A DNA stretch of 33,458 bases, taken from the IMG/VR virus record IMGVR_UViG_3300030098_005829, positions 1 to 33,458 of that record; one strand, given 5' to 3'. This document shows positions 3,890 to 32,335 of the stretch, piece by piece. The notes under the pieces were generated by a model. That model saw nothing but the letters and a program-made list of their open reading frames with translations, made no database searches and was not told where the DNA came from. The stretch is from a virus. Every line of letters begins with the position of its first letter. Position 1 is the stretch's first letter. Both the position numbers and the translations under genes were made by a program.

Positions 3890-3979
3890 TTATTCCTTTT
3901 TTTTAATGATACTTAATATAATACTTTGCATACTATTATGTGCAACTATTATTTTTATATTTATAAAATTATCATACAT
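3890..3979 (-). CDS. Possible 29-residue leader peptide
   Basis: ATG at 3979 is preceded by CAGGATTATAAAT, a usable ribosome site. The frame encodes MYDNFINIKIIVAHNSMQSI and ends in KKKE two bases before the next gene. It overlaps the TTATGTGCAAC motif, so the stretch may instead be promoter DNA. Low support. Confidence 0.2.
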   Translation of the reverse strand: MYDNFINIKIIVAHNSMQSIILSIIKKKE

Positions 3980-4020
3980 ATTTATAATCCTGCCCTGCGT
4001 TAAAATTGAAAAATTATTTT

Positions 4021-4106
4021 CAAAATTATAAAGTGAATTTATAATTCCAGGTTTCAAAATTATAATGCAAAATTATAATGCAAAATTATAATGCATATTT
4101 ATAATG
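4021..4106. repeat. Tandem 13-bp iteron-like repeats (CAAAATTATAATG)
   Basis: CAAAATTATAATG occurs three times head-to-tail without a gap (4055-4067, 4068-4080, 4081-4093), followed by a degenerate CATATTTATAATG (4094-4106). Partial copies lie upstream (CAAAATTATAAAG at 4021-4033 and an AATTTATAATT at 4036-4046). The core ATTATAAT is itself palindromic and resembles a -10 box on both strands. Such arrays serve as iterons at replication origins or as operator arrays. The array lies in a gene-free gap upstream of the small leftward genes. No initiator gene is adjacent. Confidence 0.7.
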
Positions 4107-4705: not shown

Positions 4706-5479
4706 TTAATAAATTAATGAATTATTATTTTTAGCTAAACAAAATCCCTTTTTAATTGCATTATTTAACTTTTCTTTACTACCTTTAAATTTTAAACCTA
4801 TTATGCAATTATTCCCTTTTTCATCTTTTTCATCTAGTCTTAGATCAGTTTTGTCACCATCTAAAACAAAATAAATTTTACCATCTATTTTTATTTTTTT
4901 AGGTAATTTTTCGAATACTATAGCAACATTCCAACCTTTATTTAAAGCTTTGATTGTATCAATAAAATTAGGGTTGTGATGTGAAAAAGTAAGCTGGTAA
5001 TTTTTAGGGGTATTTCTATGTACTAATTTTGTATAATCATAAAACTTAACATGTGGGAAAAGATCAAATATATTTTTTCCATCTTTTATAATATCTTTTT
5101 CTAGTAATAAATCACTGTATGTATTTAATCTAAAAGAGGGAATTAAATTCTTTTTTTCACTTTGTTTTATTGCTAATTTGATTTCATGAACTAATTGATT
5201 TAAAAAAGATTCTCTGTCTAAAAAATATGAAATAGTCTTCTTTATTCTCGATTCCATTACAGCACTATACATTTGGGAATTGCCATTATATCCAACACAT
5301 ACAGAAGAGCAATCACTTTTTTTAGGGTTGTTTTCATTTTTACTTAATCTGTTAGCCATTGCACATACATTAAAACCCGATATATCACTATGTGCATGAT
5401 TTAAAGAATAAGTATTATAATTCTCTTTTAAATTTTTACTTATTTTAAAATTAGATTCTGGTTTGCTTAGTAACATCAT
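4706..5479 (-). CDS. GP88 / DUF7227-like phage protein, 257 residues
   Basis: The layout matches a family I know from phages and plasmids as DUF7227/GP88-like, of unknown function: an N-terminal cysteine cluster (C39, C57, C61), the helix SRIKKTISYFLDRESFLNQL (78-97), then IPSFRLNTYSDLL (residues 113-125) and NIFDLFPHVKFYDYTK (136-151), YQLTFSHHNP (161-170), GWNVAIVFEKLP, and a C-terminal DGDKTDLR followed by GLKFKG. The Cys cluster and charged core suggest a metal- or Fe-S-binding enzyme, but this is not shown. GGAAAGG precedes the ATG; M1 and M2 are adjacent, so either may be used. It is the centrepiece of the AT-rich cassette. Confidence 0.7.
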   Translation of the reverse strand: MMLLSKPESNFKISKNLKENYNTYSLNHAHSDISGFNVCAMANRLSKNENNPKKSDCSSVCVGYNGNSQMYSAVMESRIKKTISYFLDRESFLNQLVHEIKLAIKQSEKKNLIPSFRLNTYSDLLLEKDIIKDGKNIFDLFPHVKFYDYTKLVHRNTPKNYQLTFSHHNPNFIDTIKALNKGWNVAIVFEKLPKKIKIDGKIYFVLDGDKTDLRLDEKDEKGNNCIIGLKFKGSKEKLNNAIKKGFCLAKNNNSLIY

Positions 5480-5480
5480 G

Positions 5481-5702
5481 TTAAATCCTTTCCATATAAT
5501 TATTATAAATTTCTATAAATATTTCTTTTATTTCTTTTTCATTATTAGAAATCAAAATTCCATATGTTTGAACAGCTTGTAAATTGTCAAATTGAATTTC
5601 TTCTATAACTTGATAATTATTCATAATATATATTTTTAAATATTGTATATCATGTTTGTCTGAATATTCAATTTTATATTTAGGTATAGTAAAATTTTTC
5701 AT
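5481..5702 (-). CDS. Hypothetical protein, 73 residues
   Basis: Begins MKNFTIPKYKIEYSDKHDIQ and has alternating beta-like segments followed by a C-terminal helix (KEIKEIFIEIYNNYMERI). It ends just before the DUF7227-like gene and shares its AT-rich composition. Ribosome sites in this cassette are A-rich (AAAAAAAGGAATAAATAAAC here). No family recognised. Confidence 0.6.
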   Translation of the reverse strand: MKNFTIPKYKIEYSDKHDIQYLKIYIMNNYQVIEEIQFDNLQAVQTYGILISNNEKEIKEIFIEIYNNYMERI

Positions 5703-6000: not shown

Positions 6001-6312
6001 AATTATCTCTTTTTTATTAGTTCTCTGTGACACCTAAAAAATAATACTTTATTATTTTAATATGCAAACTATTTTATGCATAATATTTAAATAAAAAAAA
6101 TTTATCGTTTTAATTTAGTTAAATAAGTAATTAATAATAATAATAATAAGTAATAATAAGTAGTAGTAGAAAAGAAGTAGAAGAAAAGGGTTTCATCCCC
6201 TCTTATAATGCCTGTAGAATCCCTCATATACCTTTTAACATGGATAAAATTAATCTTAGATATATTGACCCCATATTGTAATAAAGTAGCCTAATTCAAG
6301 CGATTCTTAATA
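6001..6312. promoter_or_regulatory. Divergent intergenic region with trinucleotide tract
   Basis: No supported gene lies here. Leftward the cassette genes begin at 6000, and rightward the small terminase begins at 6544, so promoters for both should lie in 6001-6543. The stretch has an ATA/AAT-rich part, a trinucleotide tract (AAT then AGT units, about 6129-6170), and a possible leftward hairpin at about 6186-6203 (AAGGG facing CCCCTCTT). No consensus promoter could be assigned with confidence. Confidence 0.4.
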
Positions 6313-6436
6313 TTTAAGGTGAAATCTAGGGTCCACTTAATAATATAAGGTAAATTATAGGGTTTGCCTAACTATTTAAGGTGGTCCAGGGGGTATACCT
6401 TAATTTTTTAGGTGGGGGGTAGGAGGATGCACTTTT
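6313..6436. repeat. Four direct repeats with exact 31-bp period; candidate packaging site
   Basis: Repeat units start at 6313, 6344, 6375 and 6406, exactly 31 bp apart. Each opens with T(T/A)T(A/T)AGGT; the first three continue with a GGGT at fixed offset and then CTTAA or CCTAA-like bases. The third unit contains the perfect inverted repeat TTAAGGT/ACCTTAA. The fourth is degenerate and very G-rich. A 31-bp spacing is about three helical turns, so bound proteins would line up on one face. The array lies about 110 bp ahead of the small terminase gene, as expected of a pac or cosB-type TerS binding site. Function is inferred. Confidence 0.7.
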
Positions 6437-6543
6437 TTGATTGGGGGGGGTCCCTTTTCCTCAAAAAATAGAGATTTTAACTATAAGAGCATATATGTAA
6501 TAGTAAATTTTGAAAAAACTATAAAATATCTATAAATTAAGAT

Positions 6544-11474: not shown

Positions 11475-12518
11475 ATGGCTTTCACAGATCCATTAGATGT
11501 AAATGTCCATAGTGGTGGTACAGGTGCTGTAACACCTAATGTCGCTGACCAGTTTGTACCTGAGGTATGGGGTCAAGCAATATTGGATGTTTTTCAACAA
11601 AAAATAATGATGAAGAATGTTGGGATAGATATTTCTCCCAATGTTGCAAATGCAGGTGATAAAATACACTTACCACATATTGGTGTTCCTGAATTAACAG
11701 CTTACACACAAGGTGCTGAAATTGCTGCTGATGTTACATCAGGTGGTAGTATGACTTCACAAGAAACAGCTCTTACTATTAGTGAGTATAATGTTGCTTC
11801 TGTGTATGTTCCTGATATTATGAATGTTCAATCAAATTATGATTTATTGAGCATTTATACTAAACAGCTTGGTTACGCTGTAGCAAGAGGTTTTGATAAT
11901 TATATGCACTATTTAGTTGCAAATAATCTACAAGGTTTACTTGCAAGTGCTACAGGTGCTGTTGGAGCAGATGCTGATACATCAATCCATGTTCAAACAA
12001 CAGGCTCTGCATTAAGTGCAGCTAACCTTTCATCTTTAATGGCAATCATTTTAGGTGAAACAGGTTCAACAGAAGGATGGAACTTAGTTCTTTCTCCTGC
12101 TATGTATGCTTCACTTGCAGCTCTTGCTGATTTCGTTAAAGGTACTGCATCTCCATTGGGTGCTGCTTTTGAATCAACAGGTAATGCAGGAAACATACTT
12201 GGTATGCCTGTATGGGTTGCTCAATCACCTTATATGGCAGGTGATGGTACTGATGTTTCTGCTGATGCTACTAAAGGTATTAAAGCAGTTGCTGATTTAG
12301 AAACTTCAGGTACAGATGATAATGATATTGTGTATGGTTATGCTATACATGAGTCAGCATTGTACTATGCCTTCTCTAAAGAAGCTAAAGTAACTGCATC
12401 TTACAGACACGCTTACCTATCAACATTGGTAACTTGTGAATCTGTATATGGTGGTGTTGCTATCAATACTGATAATCAAGGTGACAGACGAATCATCGCA
12501 TTAGTAGACTACGAATAA
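11475..12518 (+). CDS. Major capsid protein
   Basis: 347 residues. The sequence VADQFVPEVWGQAILDVFQQ followed by KIMMKNVGIDISPN, GDKIHLPHIGVPELTAYTQG and LGYAVARGFDNYMHYLVANN matches the HK97-fold coat proteins of siphoviruses, including the P-loop-like 'GDKIHLP' strand. The C-terminus has the late signature YRHAYLSTLVTCESVYGGVA. It follows the scaffold, has GAGGATAG before the ATG, and is followed by a terminator-like hairpin. Its low-complexity Ala/Thr content matches an abundant coat protein. Confidence 0.9.
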   Translation: MAFTDPLDVNVHSGGTGAVTPNVADQFVPEVWGQAILDVFQQKIMMKNVGIDISPNVANAGDKIHLPHIGVPELTAYTQGAEIAADVTSGGSMTSQETALTISEYNVASVYVPDIMNVQSNYDLLSIYTKQLGYAVARGFDNYMHYLVANNLQGLLASATGAVGADADTSIHVQTTGSALSAANLSSLMAIILGETGSTEGWNLVLSPAMYASLAALADFVKGTASPLGAAFESTGNAGNILGMPVWVAQSPYMAGDGTDVSADATKGIKAVADLETSGTDDNDIVYGYAIHESALYYAFSKEAKVTASYRHAYLSTLVTCESVYGGVAINTDNQGDRRIIALVDYE

Positions 12519-12541
12519 GAAGTCTAACTAAATAACTTATG

Positions 12542-12565
12542 AAGGGGGTGGGTAACTGCCCCCTT
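12542..12565 (+). terminator. Hairpin after the major capsid gene
   Basis: AAGGGGG (12542-12548) pairs with CCCCCTT (12559-12565) across a 10-base loop and is followed by TATT. It lies directly after the capsid gene and can reduce read-through, allowing more capsid than lysis mRNA. The T tract is short, so partial termination or mRNA stabilisation is more likely than full termination. Confidence 0.7.
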
Positions 12566-12577
12566 TATTAGGAGAAT

Positions 12578-13021
12578 ATGAAAGATTTATTAGAAAGAAT
12601 TAAAAAACACGAGGGATTCGTTGAACATGTTTATAATGATTCTCTTGGAATCCCAACAATAGGTTATGGGTTTGCAATAAAAGATTTGATTTTAGATGAG
12701 GACATCGCAGAAGAAATCCTCGTAAGGAAGATTCAGGAATTAGGTAAAAGGGTAATGAATAAATTTTTATTCTATGATGATCTTCCACAAGAAGCTAAAG
12801 AAGTTCTAATGGAAATGTCTTACCAATTAGGAGTTACTGGAGTTTCTAAATTTAAAAAGGCATTAGCAGGAATGGAGAATGGGGATTGGGATAAAGCTGC
12901 TGATGAGATGCTTGATAGTTTATGGGCAAGACAAACACCTAATCGAGCAAAAGATTTGAGTAATATCATAAGGAGTCTTGGTGAAAAAGAATCCAGTAAG
13001 AAGGGCAGTAGTAACGCCTGA
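12578..13021 (+). CDS. Endolysin, T4-lysozyme-like muramidase (GH24)
   Basis: 147 residues. The start IKKHEGFVEHVYNDSLGIPT then IGYGF holds the family triad Glu12 - Asp21 - Thr27 (E-x8-D-x5-T). It cuts the N-acetylmuramic acid/N-acetylglucosamine bond of peptidoglycan to release phage. No signal peptide is seen, so export probably depends on a holin; small membrane proteins lie just downstream. AGGAGAAT precedes the ATG. Its end overlaps the next gene by about 40 bases. Confidence 0.9.
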   Translation: MKDLLERIKKHEGFVEHVYNDSLGIPTIGYGFAIKDLILDEDIAEEILVRKIQELGKRVMNKFLFYDDLPQEAKEVLMEMSYQLGVTGVSKFKKALAGMENGDWDKAADEMLDSLWARQTPNRAKDLSNIIRSLGEKESSKKGSSNA

Positions 13022-14235: not shown

Positions 14236-14390
14236 TGTTTCCTGTGCTGAAATTACTAACACCTTCTGTGGTTAAAGCAATTATGGATTATGTTTTTAAT
14301 AAAAACGATTTAGATTATAAGATGGAAAAACTAATAGAAAGAGTAGAACAATTAGAGAAAAAGACTAAATCTTTAAAGGAGAAAAAGTGA
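14235..14390 (+). CDS. Small basic coiled-coil protein, 51 residues
   Basis: ATG at 14235 overlaps the preceding stop (TAATG). Reads MFPVLKLLTPSVVKAIMDYV, then a Lys/Glu-rich helix (YKMEKLIERVEQLEKKTKSL). The amphipathic N-terminus and heptad pattern suggest a membrane-associated coiled coil. A lysis or head accessory role cannot be told apart. Confidence 0.5.
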   Translation: MFPVLKLLTPSVVKAIMDYVFNKNDLDYKMEKLIERVEQLEKKTKSLKEKK

Positions 14391-14587
14391 ATAAATTGAC
14401 AGGTTTTTTAAAAGGATTTGCTATTGATTATGTAATTAAGTACATGAAAGATAACAAACCTTTATTGATTGAAAAAGCTAATAAGAAGTTAAATGTACCT
14501 ATTTTAAACGAAAAACAGGAAGCAGAACTTCTTGAGGCTTGTTTTGATATTAGCATGAATATGGTAGAGGGTATAAAAGACAAATAA
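14387..14587 (+). CDS. Hypothetical small protein, 66 residues
   Basis: GTG start with AAGGAG upstream, overlapping the end of the previous gene by 4 bases. Begins (M)NKLTGFLKGFAIDYVIKYM and is helical, with a Glu/Cys-containing C-terminal half (AELLEACFDISMNMVEGIKD). No family recognised. Confidence 0.55.
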   Translation: MNKLTGFLKGFAIDYVIKYMKDNKPLLIEKANKKLNVPILNEKQEAELLEACFDISMNMVEGIKDK

Positions 14588-20975: not shown

Positions 20976-22677
20976 GGTTACAATACACTTTGAAGGTAAG
21001 GGTGCTAAAGGGTTAAGAAAAGAAATCCAATTACTTGCTCAAGCCCAAGAAAGATTGAATGGGACTATAGATAAAGGGACTAAGCAATCAGGTTTATTTG
21101 GTACTGCTACTGATAGAAACAGAAAAAGTATGGGCTTAATGGGTAATGCATTTGCTACTGTTCGTTCTAAAATGCTTTTATTTAATTTTGCTATGGGTCT
21201 TGGTATAAGGCAGTTAGGGATTTTTATAAAAGAATCTCAAAAGTTAAAAGGTATGGAAAAAGGCTTTGAGAGATTGCAGGGATCTGAGTTTAAAGCTATG
21301 CTTGGCCTTGATAAGTTAAGAGATGCAACTAAAGGAGCTGTTTCTGATTTTAATTTATTAAGACAAGCTAACAATGCTATGATTCTTGGTATTACTAAGA
21401 ATACAGATGAAATGGCTGAAATGTTTTCTATGGCTCAAAATCTTGGTAGGGCATTAGGTGTTGATGCTGCACACGCTGTTGAATCATTAATTACTGGTGT
21501 TGGTCGACAATCTCGTCTTATGCTTGATAATATTGGTATTATTGTTGATACAGAAAAAGCATATAAAGAATATGCAAGTGAATTAAATATTGGGGTAGAG
21601 CTTTTAACAGATTTTGAAAAAAAACAAGCATTTTTAAATGCTACAATGAAAGCAGGTAAAGAGGCAACTAAAGAGCTTTCAGATGAAAATACATTTGGGA
21701 TTGATAGACTTAACGCAATGGGAGCTTCATTATCAAATCTTGCAGCTTCTCTTGGAAAACTTGTCGCCCCATTAATTATTCCATTAGCAGAAGCATTAAG
21801 GGTTGTATCTGATGCTGCAAATTCACTAATAGATAATTTTGGCAGCGTTATTGATGCAAATGAAGGGTTAAAAAAATCTGCTGCAGAAGCAAAAGATAAA
21901 TTCTTAGAATTTGATGCTATGATATTTAGAAATAAAGAGTCAATAGCGGCATTACAAGAAAAAATGAAAAGTATGGATGTAGGTTCACAGGAAATGATGG
22001 AAGCTGAACAAAAACTTTTTGAGAAGCTGACTGAACAAATGCAATTAGAAAAAGAAGCAGTTGAAGCATTACTTTCCCCAATTACATCATTAAATAAAAA
22101 ACAAGAAGAAGGAAATAAATTAACTGATGAGGAAATTGAAAAAGATAGAATAAAAAGACTTGAAAAACAAAAAACTGTTTCTTCTGCAATAAAGGCATCT
22201 GCTGCATTGCTTGGTTTAAATAAGAAAAATATGAAAGAGATAGCAGCACTTCAAGCTGCTGCGGCGTTAGTAGATGCCTATTCTGCTGCACAATCTCAAT
22301 ATGCAAAGGTTTCTGAGGTACTCCTTCCACCTTTCCCACAAATAGCTTATGCTGCTGCTATTGCTCAAGGTATTGCACAAGCAGGGCAGGTTACTAAAGC
22401 AGCAGGAATGTTTGAAGATGGTGGCCTTGTTGGTGGTCGAAGGCATTCTCAAGGTGGCACTATGATAGAAGCAGAGAGAGGTGAATTTGTAATGTCAAGA
22501 AATGCTGTAAATGCTGTAGGTGTAGAAGCCATGAATAGAATTAATCAAGGTCAAGGTGCAGGCAATGTAAACATATCTTTTACTGGTAATGTTATGAGTC
22601 AAGACTTTATAGAGGATGAGGCTATTCCAATGATCAAAGAAGCTATTAGGCGTGGTGCTGACATAGGAGTTTCATAA
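20962..22677 (+). CDS. Tape measure protein
   Basis: 571 residues, helical. The N-terminus (KGLRKEIQLLAQAQERLNGT) is coiled-coil-like; the middle contains MRATD-like helices and the hydrophobic SNLAASLGKLVAPLIIPLAE. The C-terminus holds AAGMFEDGGLVGGRRHSQGG and AERGEFVMSRNAVNAVGVEA, the typical C-terminal motif of phage tape measures. Its length sets the tail length; at about 0.15 nm per residue this suggests a tail near 85 nm. It lies just after the chaperones. Confidence 0.85.
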   Translation: MAQNKVTIHFEGKGAKGLRKEIQLLAQAQERLNGTIDKGTKQSGLFGTATDRNRKSMGLMGNAFATVRSKMLLFNFAMGLGIRQLGIFIKESQKLKGMEKGFERLQGSEFKAMLGLDKLRDATKGAVSDFNLLRQANNAMILGITKNTDEMAEMFSMAQNLGRALGVDAAHAVESLITGVGRQSRLMLDNIGIIVDTEKAYKEYASELNIGVELLTDFEKKQAFLNATMKAGKEATKELSDENTFGIDRLNAMGASLSNLAASLGKLVAPLIIPLAEALRVVSDAANSLIDNFGSVIDANEGLKKSAAEAKDKFLEFDAMIFRNKESIAALQEKMKSMDVGSQEMMEAEQKLFEKLTEQMQLEKEAVEALLSPITSLNKKQEEGNKLTDEEIEKDRIKRLEKQKTVSSAIKASAALLGLNKKNMKEIAALQAAAALVDAYSAAQSQYAKVSEVLLPPFPQIAYAAAIAQGIAQAGQVTKAAGMFEDGGLVGGRRHSQGGTMIEAERGEFVMSRNAVNAVGVEAMNRINQGQGAGNVNISFTGNVMSQDFIEDEAIPMIKEAIRRGADIGVS

Positions 22678-25600
22678 TGTCTTTTAAAGATGATATAAAA
22701 GGTCAAAGTACAAATCTATACCCAATAGTAACTATTGAGCCACCTAATACTTATAGTGGTGGGAATCAATGGTTAGATGATTTAGAGAATTGCATTTTTC
22801 TTTCAACTAATGCTGTTAGTTTAAATCATATACATGAACAATATTATATTGATGTTAATTCAGCAAATCTTGGGAAATTGCAAAATATAGCCTTTAAGCC
22901 AATTTTATTAAATATTCCTTCTATAAAAGAATCAATTGATATTGAGTCTAAGAAGTTTAAAATTTCAAATGTTAATTTAGACATATCTAATTTTGAATAT
23001 AATGGTGAAAGATTTTCAGATATTCTATCTAATACAAGCCTAATTAATTGGAAAGTATCAGTTCAGTTTGTATCACCTACTGCTAAACATTTTTCTACTA
23101 TTTTTCCTTTAAGTGATGGGGAACATTCAGGTTGGAAAGGTAGAAGTATGTATGATGTTTATGCAGGTGATATTGAAAATTTTAGTGCAAGTTTTCAAAG
23201 TCTTATTCCAACACAGCAACATAAAATGACCCACATGGCATATCAGGGCATTATCAGAAGAATATCACATGATGATGAAAAAGTAAGGGTTGAACTTGAA
23301 GACTCAACAGAAGAAAAAACACATAAGAATTTACCTAAACTTACTGCTCCTCCATCAGATTACTTGCCTGAAAAATATGCAAATAAGCCAATACCAATGG
23401 TTTATGGACATGTAGATAGAAGTCCTTTGCTACCTTATTATTCATATTCTGAGGATGTTGGAGATGATTCAGATGAGGTTGAAAGCATTTTAGAATACAG
23501 ATTAAAAATTGACACAGAGCAATACCATGAAATAGTTGAGGAAATTGTAAATATAGGAAATTCAGAATTTACAAAATCAGGTCTTTTTATCAAAGAAGCT
23601 GATGCCTATTTAAATCTTCATAAGACAAATGCTGCATTAGGCTATCCCACAGGAGTAGAAAACTTTAGATATGAAGACACAAGCATTGTATTAGACACAG
23701 ATGATGTTAGTTATAGTGAGGATGCATCAGAAACATCTTCAAATGATTTTTCTGAAGGAAGGCTAAGAGTACATCAAATAAGAAGATTTAATAAAGTTTC
23801 TTGGGAAGAGTCAGGTGTTGAGGTTCAGACTTCTGCAAATGGAGGGCTTATTCAGGGAGAATTGCAGGCAACATCAGCAGGAATTGGTAGGATTACAGGA
23901 ACAATAGATACAGATACATATCAGAGTGGCTCATGGGCTGCAGGATCAAATGATGATGCAACAAGAGATTGGAACGCAGGACATTTTAAATGTGTTCTTG
24001 AGCCAATTTCAATACCAAATTCTATGGCAAAAGATGAGGATGGTAATATTGAACCTCCTGTTACAAGAGTCCTTGTAGATGTTGTGCATTTTAATTTTAG
24101 AAACGAAAGTAATACACCAAGTGGACAGACTCAGAACACAGAGGGTCCACATCCTGATCTTAGTAGCAAATTATATACAAAATGGGGAGTTTGGGTAGGG
24201 GGCGTACCTTTTGATCATACTGAGTCAGGGGGGCAATCAGAAGATAACTATTATACAAATAGTAATTCTGTAGACAATATAAATGGCGATGAGTCTATTG
24301 ATGAAATTTTATTGGATGCATTCACTAGCTTAACATCTTATGATAATATAAAAATTGGGATTCCAAAACATAACTATCTTGTTTCAGGTTCAGGGCTATC
24401 TACAACCTTTGATGATGATGATGATGTGGTCTTTAATGTAGATACTACTATAAATGATGCTTTTGTAGTTCAGACATTTTTGTTAGATGGCGTAACAGAT
24501 AAAGACTATTTTGTAAATGTAAAAGGTAGAATAAATACATTTACTGATCATCACATTGATACCTCAGAATTTTTAATAGAAAATCCTATTGATATTATCT
24601 ATGATTTAGTTAGAAAAGAACTTGGGTATGATGCCATTGATGAAAAAAGTTATCAAGAGGCAAGAACAGAGCATAATAATTGGAAGTTTGGATTTACTAT
24701 AGATAAAAAGATAGATTCTAAAAAACTTATTGAAGACATATCTAAATCTACTAAATGCTTCCCTTATTTTGGTAATAATGGTAAATTTAAATTTAATACA
24801 ATAAAAAGTAATTATAGTGTAGATGATTATATTGATGCTACAGAAATAAAAGTACCTGAAGTTATTAGTTATTCTTTTAAGAAAACCAAGCCTGAGCAGA
24901 TTTATAAAAAGGTAGATGTTCAATACAATAAGGATTATGCTGAAGGCTCTTTAACAAAAAGAACAAAACCTTATATTACAGGTAATGTATCAGGAGAAGC
25001 TGTAAGTGAATGGTCAGAATCTTATTATGGAATAGAAGCATTAGAGGATAGTTATTTAGAATTTGAATCTCCATATATAAGAGAGGAAGATACTGCACTT
25101 GCTTTAAGAACTTTCTTAACAGATCAATATAGAAATGATCATCTTGTATTTAACTTAAAATTACCTCTTAAATATATAGGATTAGAGATAGGTGATTTAG
25201 TTAAGTTTAGAGAATTATTTAATGGTATAGAGGCTTATGGTATAGATTATAGGATTATACAAACTCCAAACAATGAAGATGAAGCACAAGAATATTTTCC
25301 ATTATTTATGGTAACTTCAACAAAGAAAAATCTTGATTCAGTTGAAATAGAGTGTATGCAATTACATTTCCTGAGGAATGATTATCTTAATATTCCTTTT
25401 TTAAGTAGTGATTGGTCAAATGATTCAGAGGAATTTGGGCATTTTTACTTTCCTGATTCCCCACCAATAGTTCCTATTGAACCTGTAACAGCATCAATAT
25501 CTTTTGCTGTAAATTCTGCACCACAAACTATTACAGTAGACTCTAATGGGTGGGATGGTCAGATAAATAATAATAATTATATTGATGTTCAGTTGCCTAC

Positions 25601-26432
25601 TGCTACAGGAACAATACAACTTACAAATGGTACTATAATACCACTTGATTATACAGCACATTATGGTGGGCTTCCAATGACTTCTGATTCATTGACAGTA
25701 AGGCTTTACGACAATCAAGAAACACATGAAATTATTTATAGGACTATTCAGCCTGATGATTTAGCAGCCCAAGCTATTTATGTAGAGCAAACTGCAACTC
25801 ATACAATTACATTACAAGAAGGTAATAATGCACCAACAATAACAATAGAGCCAAAAAATAATGCACTATTAGATGAATCAATTTTTACAGAAAGCGTACC
25901 TGTAATTATAGTTCCACAAATGTCAGTTAATTTCTTTGATGAATTTATAAATAATGATTCAAGGGGATTAAGTATTAATGCACATGATGTAGAAGAAGGG
26001 GATTTGACTTATATAATTAACTATAGAGTAGATGAAGATGAATCAGAGCATGGATATGCAGTTGGAGATTATATAACTTTTATTGATTGTAGTGAAACTA
26101 ATACCTTAGAAACTATGACAAGAATCTATCCTTCAGTTAGGGATTCAGGAGTTGGAGGTTCTGCACATTTATGGGGGGAAACCATAAGTGATATACAAGG
26201 ATTTGCAGTTCATATTGTATCACCTGAAGAATATGATGAGTTAGTTGGAGGATATGGTGATGTAAATCTTGATGGTGTAGTAAATGTTTTAGATGTAGTG
26301 CAAACTGTAAATTTTATACTTCATAATATTGATTTTACACAAGAACAGCAAAATGCAGCAGATATGAATAATGATGGTGATGTAAATGTATTAGATGTTG
26401 TTACTATGGTTAATTTTATTTTAGATAGTTAA
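22677..26432 (+). CDS. Large tail hub/tip protein with C-terminal dockerin-like module
   Basis: 1251 residues, directly after the tape measure. The N-terminal and central parts (FPLSDGEHSGWKGRSMYDVY, later FGFTIDKKIDSKKLIEDISK) resemble baseplate hub or tip-attachment proteins; residues about 650-900 contain hub-like beta domains. Residues about 940-1150 look like Ig-like or jelly-roll domains. The last 60 residues (about 1192-1251) hold two F-hand repeats, GDVNLDGVVNVLDVVQTVNF and DMNNDGDVNVLDVVTMVNFI, with Asp/Asn at loop positions 1, 3, 5, 9 and 12, the dockerin type I calcium-binding pattern. It starts at the tape measure stop (TAATG). Confidence 0.75.
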   Translation: MSFKDDIKGQSTNLYPIVTIEPPNTYSGGNQWLDDLENCIFLSTNAVSLNHIHEQYYIDVNSANLGKLQNIAFKPILLNIPSIKESIDIESKKFKISNVNLDISNFEYNGERFSDILSNTSLINWKVSVQFVSPTAKHFSTIFPLSDGEHSGWKGRSMYDVYAGDIENFSASFQSLIPTQQHKMTHMAYQGIIRRISHDDEKVRVELEDSTEEKTHKNLPKLTAPPSDYLPEKYANKPIPMVYGHVDRSPLLPYYSYSEDVGDDSDEVESILEYRLKIDTEQYHEIVEEIVNIGNSEFTKSGLFIKEADAYLNLHKTNAALGYPTGVENFRYEDTSIVLDTDDVSYSEDASETSSNDFSEGRLRVHQIRRFNKVSWEESGVEVQTSANGGLIQGELQATSAGIGRITGTIDTDTYQSGSWAAGSNDDATRDWNAGHFKCVLEPISIPNSMAKDEDGNIEPPVTRVLVDVVHFNFRNESNTPSGQTQNTEGPHPDLSSKLYTKWGVWVGGVPFDHTESGGQSEDNYYTNSNSVDNINGDESIDEILLDAFTSLTSYDNIKIGIPKHNYLVSGSGLSTTFDDDDDVVFNVDTTINDAFVVQTFLLDGVTDKDYFVNVKGRINTFTDHHIDTSEFLIENPIDIIYDLVRKELGYDAIDEKSYQEARTEHNNWKFGFTIDKKIDSKKLIEDISKSTKCFPYFGNNGKFKFNTIKSNYSVDDYIDATEIKVPEVISYSFKKTKPEQIYKKVDVQYNKDYAEGSLTKRTKPYITGNVSGEAVSEWSESYYGIEALEDSYLEFESPYIREEDTALALRTFLTDQYRNDHLVFNLKLPLKYIGLEIGDLVKFRELFNGIEAYGIDYRIIQTPNNEDEAQEYFPLFMVTSTKKNLDSVEIECMQLHFLRNDYLNIPFLSSDWSNDSEEFGHFYFPDSPPIVPIEPVTASISFAVNSAPQTITVDSNGWDGQINNNNYIDVQLPTATGTIQLTNGTIIPLDYTAHYGGLPMTSDSLTVRLYDNQETHEIIYRTIQPDDLAAQAIYVEQTATHTITLQEGNNAPTITIEPKNNALLDESIFTESVPVIIVPQMSVNFFDEFINNDSRGLSINAHDVEEGDLTYIINYRVDEDESEHGYAVGDYITFIDCSETNTLETMTRIYPSVRDSGVGGSAHLWGETISDIQGFAVHIVSPEEYDELVGGYGDVNLDGVVNVLDVVQTVNFILHNIDFTQEQQNAADMNNDGDVNVLDVVTMVNFILDS

Positions 26433-30465: not shown

Positions 30466-31284
30466 TTATATGATTCGTTCTGCTTTCATAGCTGATACCA
30501 TTCTTGTTACCCCTATACCACCACCAAATCTTTTAAACATAGGCAAGGCAAGATATTCTTCTAATTCGTCTTCAACTCTTTTTTTACCAAAGTGATTATA
30601 AAGTAAGTTAGCATATTCACCATCAGATATATTATGAAACTGATGTCGCATCTCTTTAACATCTGTAGCTCTTTCAGCACTTCCTATAGTTTCCATACCA
30701 TGCATAATAACATCAACTTTATTGTATATCCCATCACCTCTATGTTTCATATTCCAAAATGGATGAGTTCTTAATGGAAAATCTTTAAGGAATACACATG
30801 GTGTATACTGCCTACATAATGCTTCCTCTTCATCATAGTCTAATAAGCCTACATCATAATGTCTACAAGCATCATCATAGGTAATTGTCTTATGAACTTC
30901 ACCAAAGCCTAAGTAAGATAATAATTCTGTTTCTAACTCTATCATATCGTACATATCTCCATGTGATTCAAACTCAAACATTGGAAATATTTTTTCATGT
31001 CTTCCTTCTACTGGATTAGGCTCATTCCTGTAGCTTGTACTTACACAGAATACACCTTTAACATCAGGATTATCTAATAAATCTCTTTCTAACCACATTT
31101 GACCTGTTTGAGGTAATGGCCAATTTATACCACTAAATATATATTGTGATATAGTAGCAGGGTCTTCACATGCAGCCAATATTGATTGTCTTGATTGTGC
31201 AGGGACTTCAATAAAGCCTTTTTCTTTTTGAAAGAAATCTCTCATCTTAGATGTGGCGTAATTAAAGTCATACATATTTTTCAT
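30466..31284 (-). CDS. Class IIb aminoacyl-tRNA synthetase-like core enzyme without anticodon domain
   Basis: 272 residues. It carries the class II catalytic core of the Asp/Asn/Lys group: WPLPQTGQMWLE (55-66), motif 2 as SYRNEPNPVEGRHEKIFPMF (84-103) with the conserved Arg, the segment VFLKDFPLRTHPFWNMK, METIGSAERATD (197-208), and motif 3 GGGIGVTR (254-261). The N-terminal OB-fold anticodon-binding domain of AspRS/AsnRS/LysRS is absent. Stand-alone cores of this kind include archaeal asparagine synthetase-like AsnA relatives and synthetase paralogs, so adenylation of an amino acid is likely but tRNA charging is doubtful. AAAGGA precedes the ATG. Confidence 0.8.
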   Translation of the reverse strand: MKNMYDFNYATSKMRDFFQKEKGFIEVPAQSRQSILAACEDPATISQYIFSGINWPLPQTGQMWLERDLLDNPDVKGVFCVSTSYRNEPNPVEGRHEKIFPMFEFESHGDMYDMIELETELLSYLGFGEVHKTITYDDACRHYDVGLLDYDEEEALCRQYTPCVFLKDFPLRTHPFWNMKHRGDGIYNKVDVIMHGMETIGSAERATDVKEMRHQFHNISDGEYANLLYNHFGKKRVEDELEEYLALPMFKRFGGGIGVTRMVSAMKAERII

Positions 31285-31316
31285 TTATCTTATTTCCTTT
31301 TATTTTATATAATTAA

Positions 31317-31581
31317 TACCCAATAGCCATAGGACTTTTTACAGTTTTTTACAAGCAACTTGTAGCCTTGTAATGTTATGTGCGATAATCCCTTTTAAGC
31401 AAAATGCTCTAAAATTATCTATGTGGTCAGTACAAGAATTTTCCTACAAAATATCTAATTTGTACTGAAATGCCTATGGCTCTCTATGGGTAGTTTCAAA
31501 AAACAATGGGCATAGTTGGTGGAAAACAGATGAAAAACCACCAAAAAAAAGGAAGGGATATTGACCTTATTATCTATGCCC
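31317..31581 (-). ncRNA. Candidate structured RNA / leader upstream of the synthetase-like gene
   Basis: Two compact domains of perfect helices are seen. Domain 1: outer stem TACCC/GGGTA (31317-31321/31488-31492) plus AGCCATAGG/CCTATGGCT (31325-31333/31473-31481) encloses three hairpins, TACAAG-CAA-CTTGTA (31350-31364), GATAAT/ATTATC (31384-31389/31414-31419) enclosing AGCA/TGCT, and CAGTACAA/TTGTACTG (31428-31435/31460-31467): a four-way junction. Domain 2: GGGCATAG/CTATGCCC (31508-31515/31574-31581) continues into TTGGTGG/CCACCAA (31516-31522/31538-31544). It lies between a small gene (stop at 31570) and the synthetase start at 31284, on the operon's transcribed strand. No known family was matched; a T-box sequence was not found. 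Confidence 0.55.
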
Positions 31582-31746
31582 TAAATCTTCCATTTCTATT
31601 AAACACTTAGCTGCAATCATATATGGATCATAAGAATCTCTAATATTCTCAAGGCCATCTATAGCAGTATTTAACTGCTTTTTGACTATAGCCAGTTCTT
31701 CAGCAAGCTCTTTATTATTTCTTGCTAATTCTTCCATTTTTTTCAT
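31570..31746 (-). CDS. Small coiled-coil protein, 58 residues
   Basis: Starts MKKMEELARNNKELAEELAI and continues helical, then DSYDPYMIAAKCLIEMEDLG. The Leu/Glu/Lys pattern suggests a coiled coil. Its last codons form one strand of the domain-2 stem in the structured region downstream. AAAGGA lies before the start; the Met at codon 4 is an alternative. It overlaps the preceding gene. Confidence 0.55.
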   Translation of the reverse strand: MKKMEELARNNKELAEELAIVKKQLNTAIDGLENIRDSYDPYMIAAKCLIEMEDLGHR

Positions 31747-31924: not shown

Positions 31925-32335
31925 TTATCTTGATGGGTGTAAGTCCTTACCACAACATCTACTAAGCATTTGATGGACACTAAATTTATCATAAAAATCA
32001 CTTGTCTTACAAGATGAACAATATCCTATCCTGGAACTACCTGATGTATCCATCCTAAAGTCATTTGCTGATAACTTTAATTCAATTTCTGTTTCAAACT
32101 CATCTTCCCAATGTTCCCCATTTATAAAAGTAGAAGCATGTTTTATAAAAGGCTTTTCAGTACCATATATATTAATTTGTTTAATGTAATTTTTAACACC
32201 TTCAATACACTCTTCTTGTGTTCTTTTAGGCAATCTATTAAAAGATGTTCTAGCTGCTTTTTTACCTACTTTTCTTGGATATATTTCCCATAATTTATCA
32301 AAATTATTCATAGCTATTAACTGCACCTGGGACAT
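31925..32335 (-). CDS. Replication initiation-like protein (helicase-loader C-terminal type) with zinc cluster
   Basis: 136 residues. FDKLWEIYPRKVGKKAARTS, followed by KPFIKHASTFINGEHWEDEF, is the C-terminal module of phage replication initiators and helicase loaders ('FxxFWxxYPxKxGKxxA' and 'PATWLNxxRWxDE' patterns). After it come CSSC and CC, a possible zinc cluster. The N-terminal DNA-binding part found in full initiators is missing, so it may be a trimmed or single-domain version. The ATG at 32335 has AAGG upstream and overlaps the previous gene's end. Confidence 0.7.
   Translation of the reverse strand: MSQVQLIAMNNFDKLWEIYPRKVGKKAARTSFNRLPKRTQEECIEGVKNYIKQINIYGTEKPFIKHASTFINGEHWEDEFETEIELKLSANDFRMDTSGSSRIGYCSSCKTSDFYDKFSVHQMLSRCCGKDLHPSR

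Follow-up and report, generated by a model that had tools for sequence, protein, structure and literature searches.

A structured RNA with a covarying pseudoknot in an intergenic gap of related phages

What does the noncoding DNA in front of a synthetase-like phage gene encode, and does it serve that gene? The stretch of DNA analyzed here (the window) comes from a virus record and spans 33,458 bases; the feature in question lies on its minus strand at 31317-31581. A first-pass annotation, made from the letters alone, had described it as a nested, multi-branched RNA that might be either a riboswitch-like leader of the synthetase-like gene or a processed small RNA.

A folded RNA between co-directional genes

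The gap between the genes, previously given as about 285 bp, measures exactly 285 bp, and stops break the reading frames in all six frames. The locus and the predicted fold comprise the following features.

31285-31569, minus strand: noncoding intergenic region with the RNA; every flanking gene is also on the minus strand
31570-31746, minus strand: 58-aa coiled-coil-like gene directly upstream, absent from the first-pass gene list
30466-31284, minus strand: downstream gene of 272 aa with a class II aminoacyl-tRNA-synthetase core (PF00152; phrog_29758)
31508-31581, minus strand: domain 1, with closing stem GGGCAUAG/CUAUGCCC and inner stem UUGGUGG/CCACCAA; z -3.6
31317-31492, minus strand: domain 2, a four-way junction with a bipartite closing stem of 6+9 bp; z -4.4
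31427-31468, minus strand: hairpin 1 of domain 2, UCAGUACAA/UUGUACUGA plus an upper stem
31384-31419, minus strand: hairpin 2 of domain 2, GAUAAU/AUUAUC plus an inner stem
31482-31488, minus strand: CAUAGAG, in the internal loop that separates the two parts of the domain 2 closing stem

The first arm of domain 1 overlaps the final codons of the 58-aa gene. Further upstream, the gene at 31925-32335 matches replication-initiation families. No tRNA or tmRNA was found in the window, no iteron array in the RNA region and no tandem array at 31285-31569. Neither a promoter nor a terminator signal beside the RNA exceeded shuffled sequences, which fits an RNA internal to an operon.

The nested helices were present without conflict, as the first-pass annotation had stated. 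In domain 1, the closing stem pairs 31581-31574 with 31515-31508 (8/8 paired) and the inner stem 31544-31538 with 31522-31516 (7/7). The closing stem of domain 2 is indeed bipartite, with an outer part of 6 bp (31492-31487 with 31322-31317) and an inner part of 9 bp (31481-31473 with 31333-31325), and encloses three hairpins at 31468-31427, 31419-31384 and 31373-31349; the pairing probability was above 0.9 for most stem pairs of this domain.

The folding energy of domain 2 was -48.3 kcal/mol compared to a shuffled mean of -31.6 (z -4.4), and none of 300 dinucleotide shuffles was as low; for domain 1 (z -3.6) and for the whole RNA (z -3.9), one shuffle of 300 was. A separate run with slightly wider ends gave z -4.3 (0/200 shuffles). 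The plus strand folded equally strongly (300 dinucleotide shuffles), and energy therefore cannot fix the strand. When the genome was scanned in 606 equal-sized segments, the mean z was -0.4 (SD 1.3), with 23 segments at z ≤ -3, five at z ≤ -4 and three at z ≤ -4.5, which places the RNA in about the top 1%. The fold is thus strong but not unique in this genome, and energy alone is insufficient to settle the case. The first-pass observation is confirmed; the decisive evidence for it is the comparison with other phages described below, not the fold by itself.

Several further observations were made on the window. Within the RNA, a 7-bp perfect complementarity (AUCCCUU/AAGGGAU, 31553-31559 with 31388-31394) could pair domain 1 with domain 2, and CATAGATAAT is repeated at 31569-31578 and 31414-31423 (plus strand: ATTATCTATG); through the complementarity and the repeat, hairpin 2 could instead pair with domain 1. 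The strongest z-scores of the genome scan, about -4.5 to -5.5, fell at 12481-12640, which contains the terminator-hairpin-like GAAGGGGGTGGGTAACTGCCCCCTTTATT, and at 14321-14560, mostly in and around a small gene. At 6228-6450, a noncoding gap contains imperfect 31-nt repeats (units TAAGGT...TAGGGT) and then runs rich in G; it could be an origin or a control region. Near the left arm, the gap at 3965-4105 carries an array of TATAAT-like boxes with four copies of the 13-nt unit CAAAATTATAATG, a possible promoter or binding-site array. The 1251-aa protein encoded at 22677-26432 has a C-terminal type I dockerin (PF00404), which is unusual for a protein of a phage structural region.

Compensatory changes in a pseudoknot of three phages

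Homologues were sought in several ways. Searches with blastn and nhmmer recovered no relatives, and a covariance model built on the fold of the window RNA did not do so either; we therefore consider single-sequence models too narrow here. One contig (L082) is 99.8% identical to the window and carries no covariation information. It extends beyond the right end of the window into DNA 68-80% identical to the left end (1-1947 of the contig versus 1-1502 of the window), which suggests a genome whose ends join up and an exchange of this stretch among relatives. Cousin phages were reached via 60 relatives of the terminase gene; their whole records were fetched and the gaps folded. An element that the nested fold does not show, located in the third hairpin of domain 2, was present in an intergenic gap of two of them, G015 and G034 (L198), on the same sense strand as in the window.

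31340-31370, minus strand: H-type pseudoknot inside the third hairpin; 11 pairs kept in three phages, 5 of them altered on both sides

In the window, stem 1 is formed by CAA-(G bulge)-GC and GC-UUG (31370-31365 with 31356-31352; 5 bp plus the bulged G). It is followed after a first loop of 1 nt by stem 2 (6 bp plus a bulged A), in which the hairpin loop UACAAGUU (31364-31357) pairs with the strand AACUGU (31346-31341); the last loop, UAAAA (31351-31347), is an A-rich linker of 5 nt. The core reads ACAA-G-GC-UACAAGUU-GC-UUGU in the window, GGU-G-GC-UACAAGUU-GC-ACC in G034 and ACU-G-GC-UGGAAGUU-GC-AGU in G015, and the 3' strand that pairs with the loop is AACUGU in the first two and AACUCC in the third. 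The G034 pseudoknot has an additional hairpin in its last loop.

In the alignment of the three sequences, 33 of 33 cells were paired, and five of the 11 pairs were altered on both sides. Stem 1 holds three of these five and stem 2 the other two (AC/GU versus GG/CC); for this count the 23-nt hairpin insertion of G034 was taken out by hand. The covariation score, which covers three sequences and the pseudoknot only, was 0.73 compared to at most 0.15 for slid partners; the shuffled mean was 0.23, and one of 500 shuffles reached 0.73. As judged from the aligned sequences, this shows that the pseudoknot is maintained by compensatory change at the RNA level and in the sense orientation. Covariation in homologous phages, the check that the first-pass annotation had proposed, thus yields covarying pairs as expected of an evolutionarily conserved structured RNA; the evidence is good though shallow, coming from three phages.

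To describe the element, we combined 11 fixed bases with a 3-bp outer stem and the loop complement. This descriptor matched exactly three loci (plus overlapping copies) on both strands of 2.25 Mb of phage DNA, and these counts are not a blind test, the motif having been spotted before the descriptor was composed. No further locus appeared at one or two mismatches, and a single unrelated one at three. Since the search gave no near misses, chance is unlikely. With the spacing fixed, the sequence part by itself matched 17 places in a collection of bacterial and archaeal genomes, none of which had both the full stem and the loop complement. These results bear on the possibility that AT-rich intergenic DNA folds here by chance and without function. 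The 23 of 606 genome segments at z ≤ -3 would agree with it, as would the lack of sequence similarity between most of the RNA and the RNA of the cousins, but both-sided changes at five pairs and three corresponding sites found nowhere else at one to two mismatches make it extremely improbable.

Rfam searches at gathering thresholds gave no match in the window or the cousins, and permissive searches up to E 10 returned chance-level matches only. Given the recurrence of its core with compensated changes, the RNA is real; it matches no Rfam family and is so far uncatalogued, in line with the earlier description of a structured minus-strand RNA without a T-box or other known motif.

Neighboring genes and possible roles

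The second part of the earlier description, a riboswitch-like leader of the synthetase gene, fared differently. We fetched 80 relatives of this gene. In six of those with 72-81% identity (L001-L005 and L007) another gene lies upstream, separated by a few dozen bases at most. A seventh, the phage contig L006, has different noncoding DNA there (5123-5611): a tmRNA gene, a pair of tRNA genes and then a stretch whose fold has z -1.0, directly 5' of the synthetase-like gene. This DNA was ruled out as a homologue. Furthermore, the gene that follows the pseudoknot varies: it is the synthetase in the window, a gene for a 118-aa protein in G034 and another small gene in G015. A riboswitch specific to the synthetase would be expected to persist in front of such close homologues. 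With no leader there and a changing gene downstream, a synthetase-linked riboswitch is unsupported, and this gene is probably not the functional partner of the RNA. The processed small RNA, the other option offered by the first-pass annotation, is retained as a candidate and fits better than a synthetase leader.

The gene block of the cousins comprises DnaB, a DNA cytosine methylase and small genes, with the structured gap on the same strand as the flanking genes; DnaB lies near the RNA gap in the cousins, and in G015 the block also carries the methylase. On the 5' side of the gap, G023, G033 and G034 each have a member of the small coiled-coil family that includes the 58-aa gene of the window. 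For G033 and G023 this was found by single-sequence matches (E about 0.0006-0.003 among 29,486 reading frames), and G034 was assigned from its sequence; the gene is absent in G015, and a scan of bacterial genomes for the family found none. A 195-aa protein of the block has an acidic DDLPF tail, the sole ground for an SSB-like label that we do not use as evidence, and its 205-aa neighbor matches only an unnamed PHROG.

Outside the pseudoknot, the RNAs differ. G015 and G034 have an upstream hairpin in common with the outer stem AUUCGU/ACGAAU and an inner stem that is GGUAUAAG/CUUAUACC in one and GCCC/GGGC in the other, paired in both. A later domain (domain B) is common to G015, G023 and G033, where the closing stem is paired with altered bases (GGGCAGAUA/UAUCUGCCC, GAGCAGGUA/UACCUGCUC and GAGCAGGCAG/CUGUCUGCUC) and the neighbors show sequence similarity beyond shuffles; a MAFFT alignment of this domain misplaced the closing strands and was excluded from the counts. 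The pseudoknot is missing from G023 and G033, which do have the later domain. The RNA is missing from G018 (L163) and L193, although both have the gene block, and from most related phages. The remainder of the window RNA, including the four-way junction, was not alignable by sequence to the RNA of the cousins. CAUAGAGA lies between helices in the internal loop of the window RNA and occurs twice, again between helices, in the G015 RNA, a shared sequence that is suggestive only. The modules of this RNA appear to evolve fast and to be rearranged.

One apparent resemblance was rejected. The likeness of domain 1 to GGGCAGATA... in G015 is on the antisense strand, and orientation by synteny identifies the stretch as domain B of G015, G023 and G033; the members of domain B match one another by sequence, not the window. 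Further gaps of note were also seen. In the more distant cousins L194 (5140-5226 and 5511-5580) and L191 (5690-5770), gaps between co-directional genes are closed by stems of about 8-12 bp with mutually unlike sequences. A conserved structured gap in L163 (864-1106; also L172, 8502-8605) has a tRNA-like acceptor and T-arm (GGTTCGATTCC) with no space for an anticodon arm and received no ARAGORN or Rfam call. A noncoding gap in the cousin L153 (9248-9848) holds a perfect GCGCTGGGG tandem array.

Taking these data together, we tentatively favor, at a confidence just short of even, a noncoding RNA of the early or replication operon that acts via its pseudoknot as a putative protein-binding site. 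It may be made within the early polycistronic transcript or cut from it, and would work as one folded unit. An RNA-binding protein of the phage or its host would dock on the pseudoknot, which the variable outer domains would hold, protect or time. The RNA would not be a ligand sensor for the synthetase gene that follows in the window. This role is consistent with the match of exactly three independent phages at the corresponding gap in the sense orientation, with the paired state of all cells despite the altered pairs, with the absence of both helices from all 17 genome-collection matches, with the change of downstream gene from phage to phage, with the recurrence of the upstream coiled-coil family, and with the lack of the RNA at close relatives of the synthetase gene. 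On the other side stand the small number of independent examples (three, with the G034 insertion excised), the poor alignability and patchy occurrence of the RNA and the missing coiled-coil gene in G015; moreover, a cis-acting element would look identical. Cis-acting roles are accordingly the main rivals.

One such role is a translational operator or riboswitch-like leader, in which a protein or ligand on the pseudoknot would control the ribosome site about 50 nt downstream. The spacing would suit it, with 55 nt from the end of the pseudoknot to the start codon and an A+U-rich stretch with the ribosome site following the pseudoknot. We nevertheless consider an operator unlikely, given that the next gene is a different one at all three pseudoknot sites, that about 270 nt and several hairpins separate the G015 pseudoknot from the next start, that synthetase genes of 72-81% identity do without it, and that no gene for a single-stranded-DNA-binding protein follows it.

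A second cis-acting role would be independent of the gene, as an element of transcription or mRNA fate (antitermination of the HK022 put type, pausing, RNase processing or 3'-end protection). Structured elements of differing sequence in the co-directional gene gaps of G015, G023, G033, G036 and G038 speak for it, as do the eight U that follow domain B in G033. It is doubtful all the same: a sequence-specific covarying pseudoknot exceeds the needs of a simple processing hairpin, its position relative to operon ends is variable, and no terminator was recognised beside the RNA in the window.

The RNA or its single-stranded DNA form could also start DNA synthesis in the replication block, as a replication origin or primer. 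The replication-initiation matches of the gene at 31925-32335, the nearby DnaB of the cousins and the ability of the DNA to fold on both strands are compatible with this role. It is nonetheless highly improbable, as the region has no iteron array, a covarying pseudoknot with a bulge and an A-rich loop suits RNA better than DNA, and L163 and L193 possess the same block without the RNA.

This work adds to these phages a structured RNA that has comparative support and whose pseudoknot is conserved and covarying, and provides a short strict descriptor for searches of metagenomes and metatranscriptomes. The two covarying pairs of the pseudoknot represent ready compensatory mutants. In these phages, the putative protein-binding role, if true, would make the RNA a handle on RNA-based control or counter-defence.

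Comparison with known RNA systems

In the preQ1-I riboswitch (RF00522), a hairpin precedes an A-rich tail, and a short strand at the end of this tail pairs with the hairpin loop; the window pseudoknot has the same layout. Unlike the riboswitch, it engages its whole loop in the 6-bp second stem, leaving no space for a ligand loop, and Rfam does not match it to this family even at E 10. The HK022 put antitermination RNAs are likewise structured RNAs of a phage early operon, but they are two simple hairpins near the promoter; similarity to them was judged via Rfam only. GOLLD and ROOL (PMC12286853) are ornate phage-linked noncoding RNAs like the present one, but far larger, and the window RNA has no Rfam match.

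In the T4 gene 32 leader, an H-type pseudoknot lies 67 nt upstream of the start codon and is followed by A+U-rich sequence (PMC3014915), a precedent for the operator discussed above and an arrangement resembling that of the window, with a pseudoknot in phage mRNA upstream of an A+U-rich ribosome-site region. The T4 pseudoknot, however, precedes the gene of its own binding protein (PMC3014915), whereas the RNA described here precedes a synthetase-like gene in the window, the gene of a 118-aa protein in G034 and another small gene in G015, and no gene for a single-stranded-DNA-binding protein.

The pseudoknot could also be a phage RNA decoy or antitoxin mimic that neutralises an RNase-type defence of the host (a type III toxin-antitoxin system or the like), present as a standing part of the early operon and not as a rare escape mutation; we give this combined reading very little weight. 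A search for ToxN (PF13958) in six phage records found no match, and the control genomes were also silent. Unlike the type III antitoxins, the window RNA occurs as a single copy per phage, with no tandem array, and its pseudoknot sits in a larger folded RNA. In its architecture, the window pseudoknot resembles the CptI antitoxin (PMC5086642): both are compact, of the H-type and about 31 nt in length, and both combine two duplex stems with a first loop of one base and a long loop rich in A, which is the last loop in the window pseudoknot.
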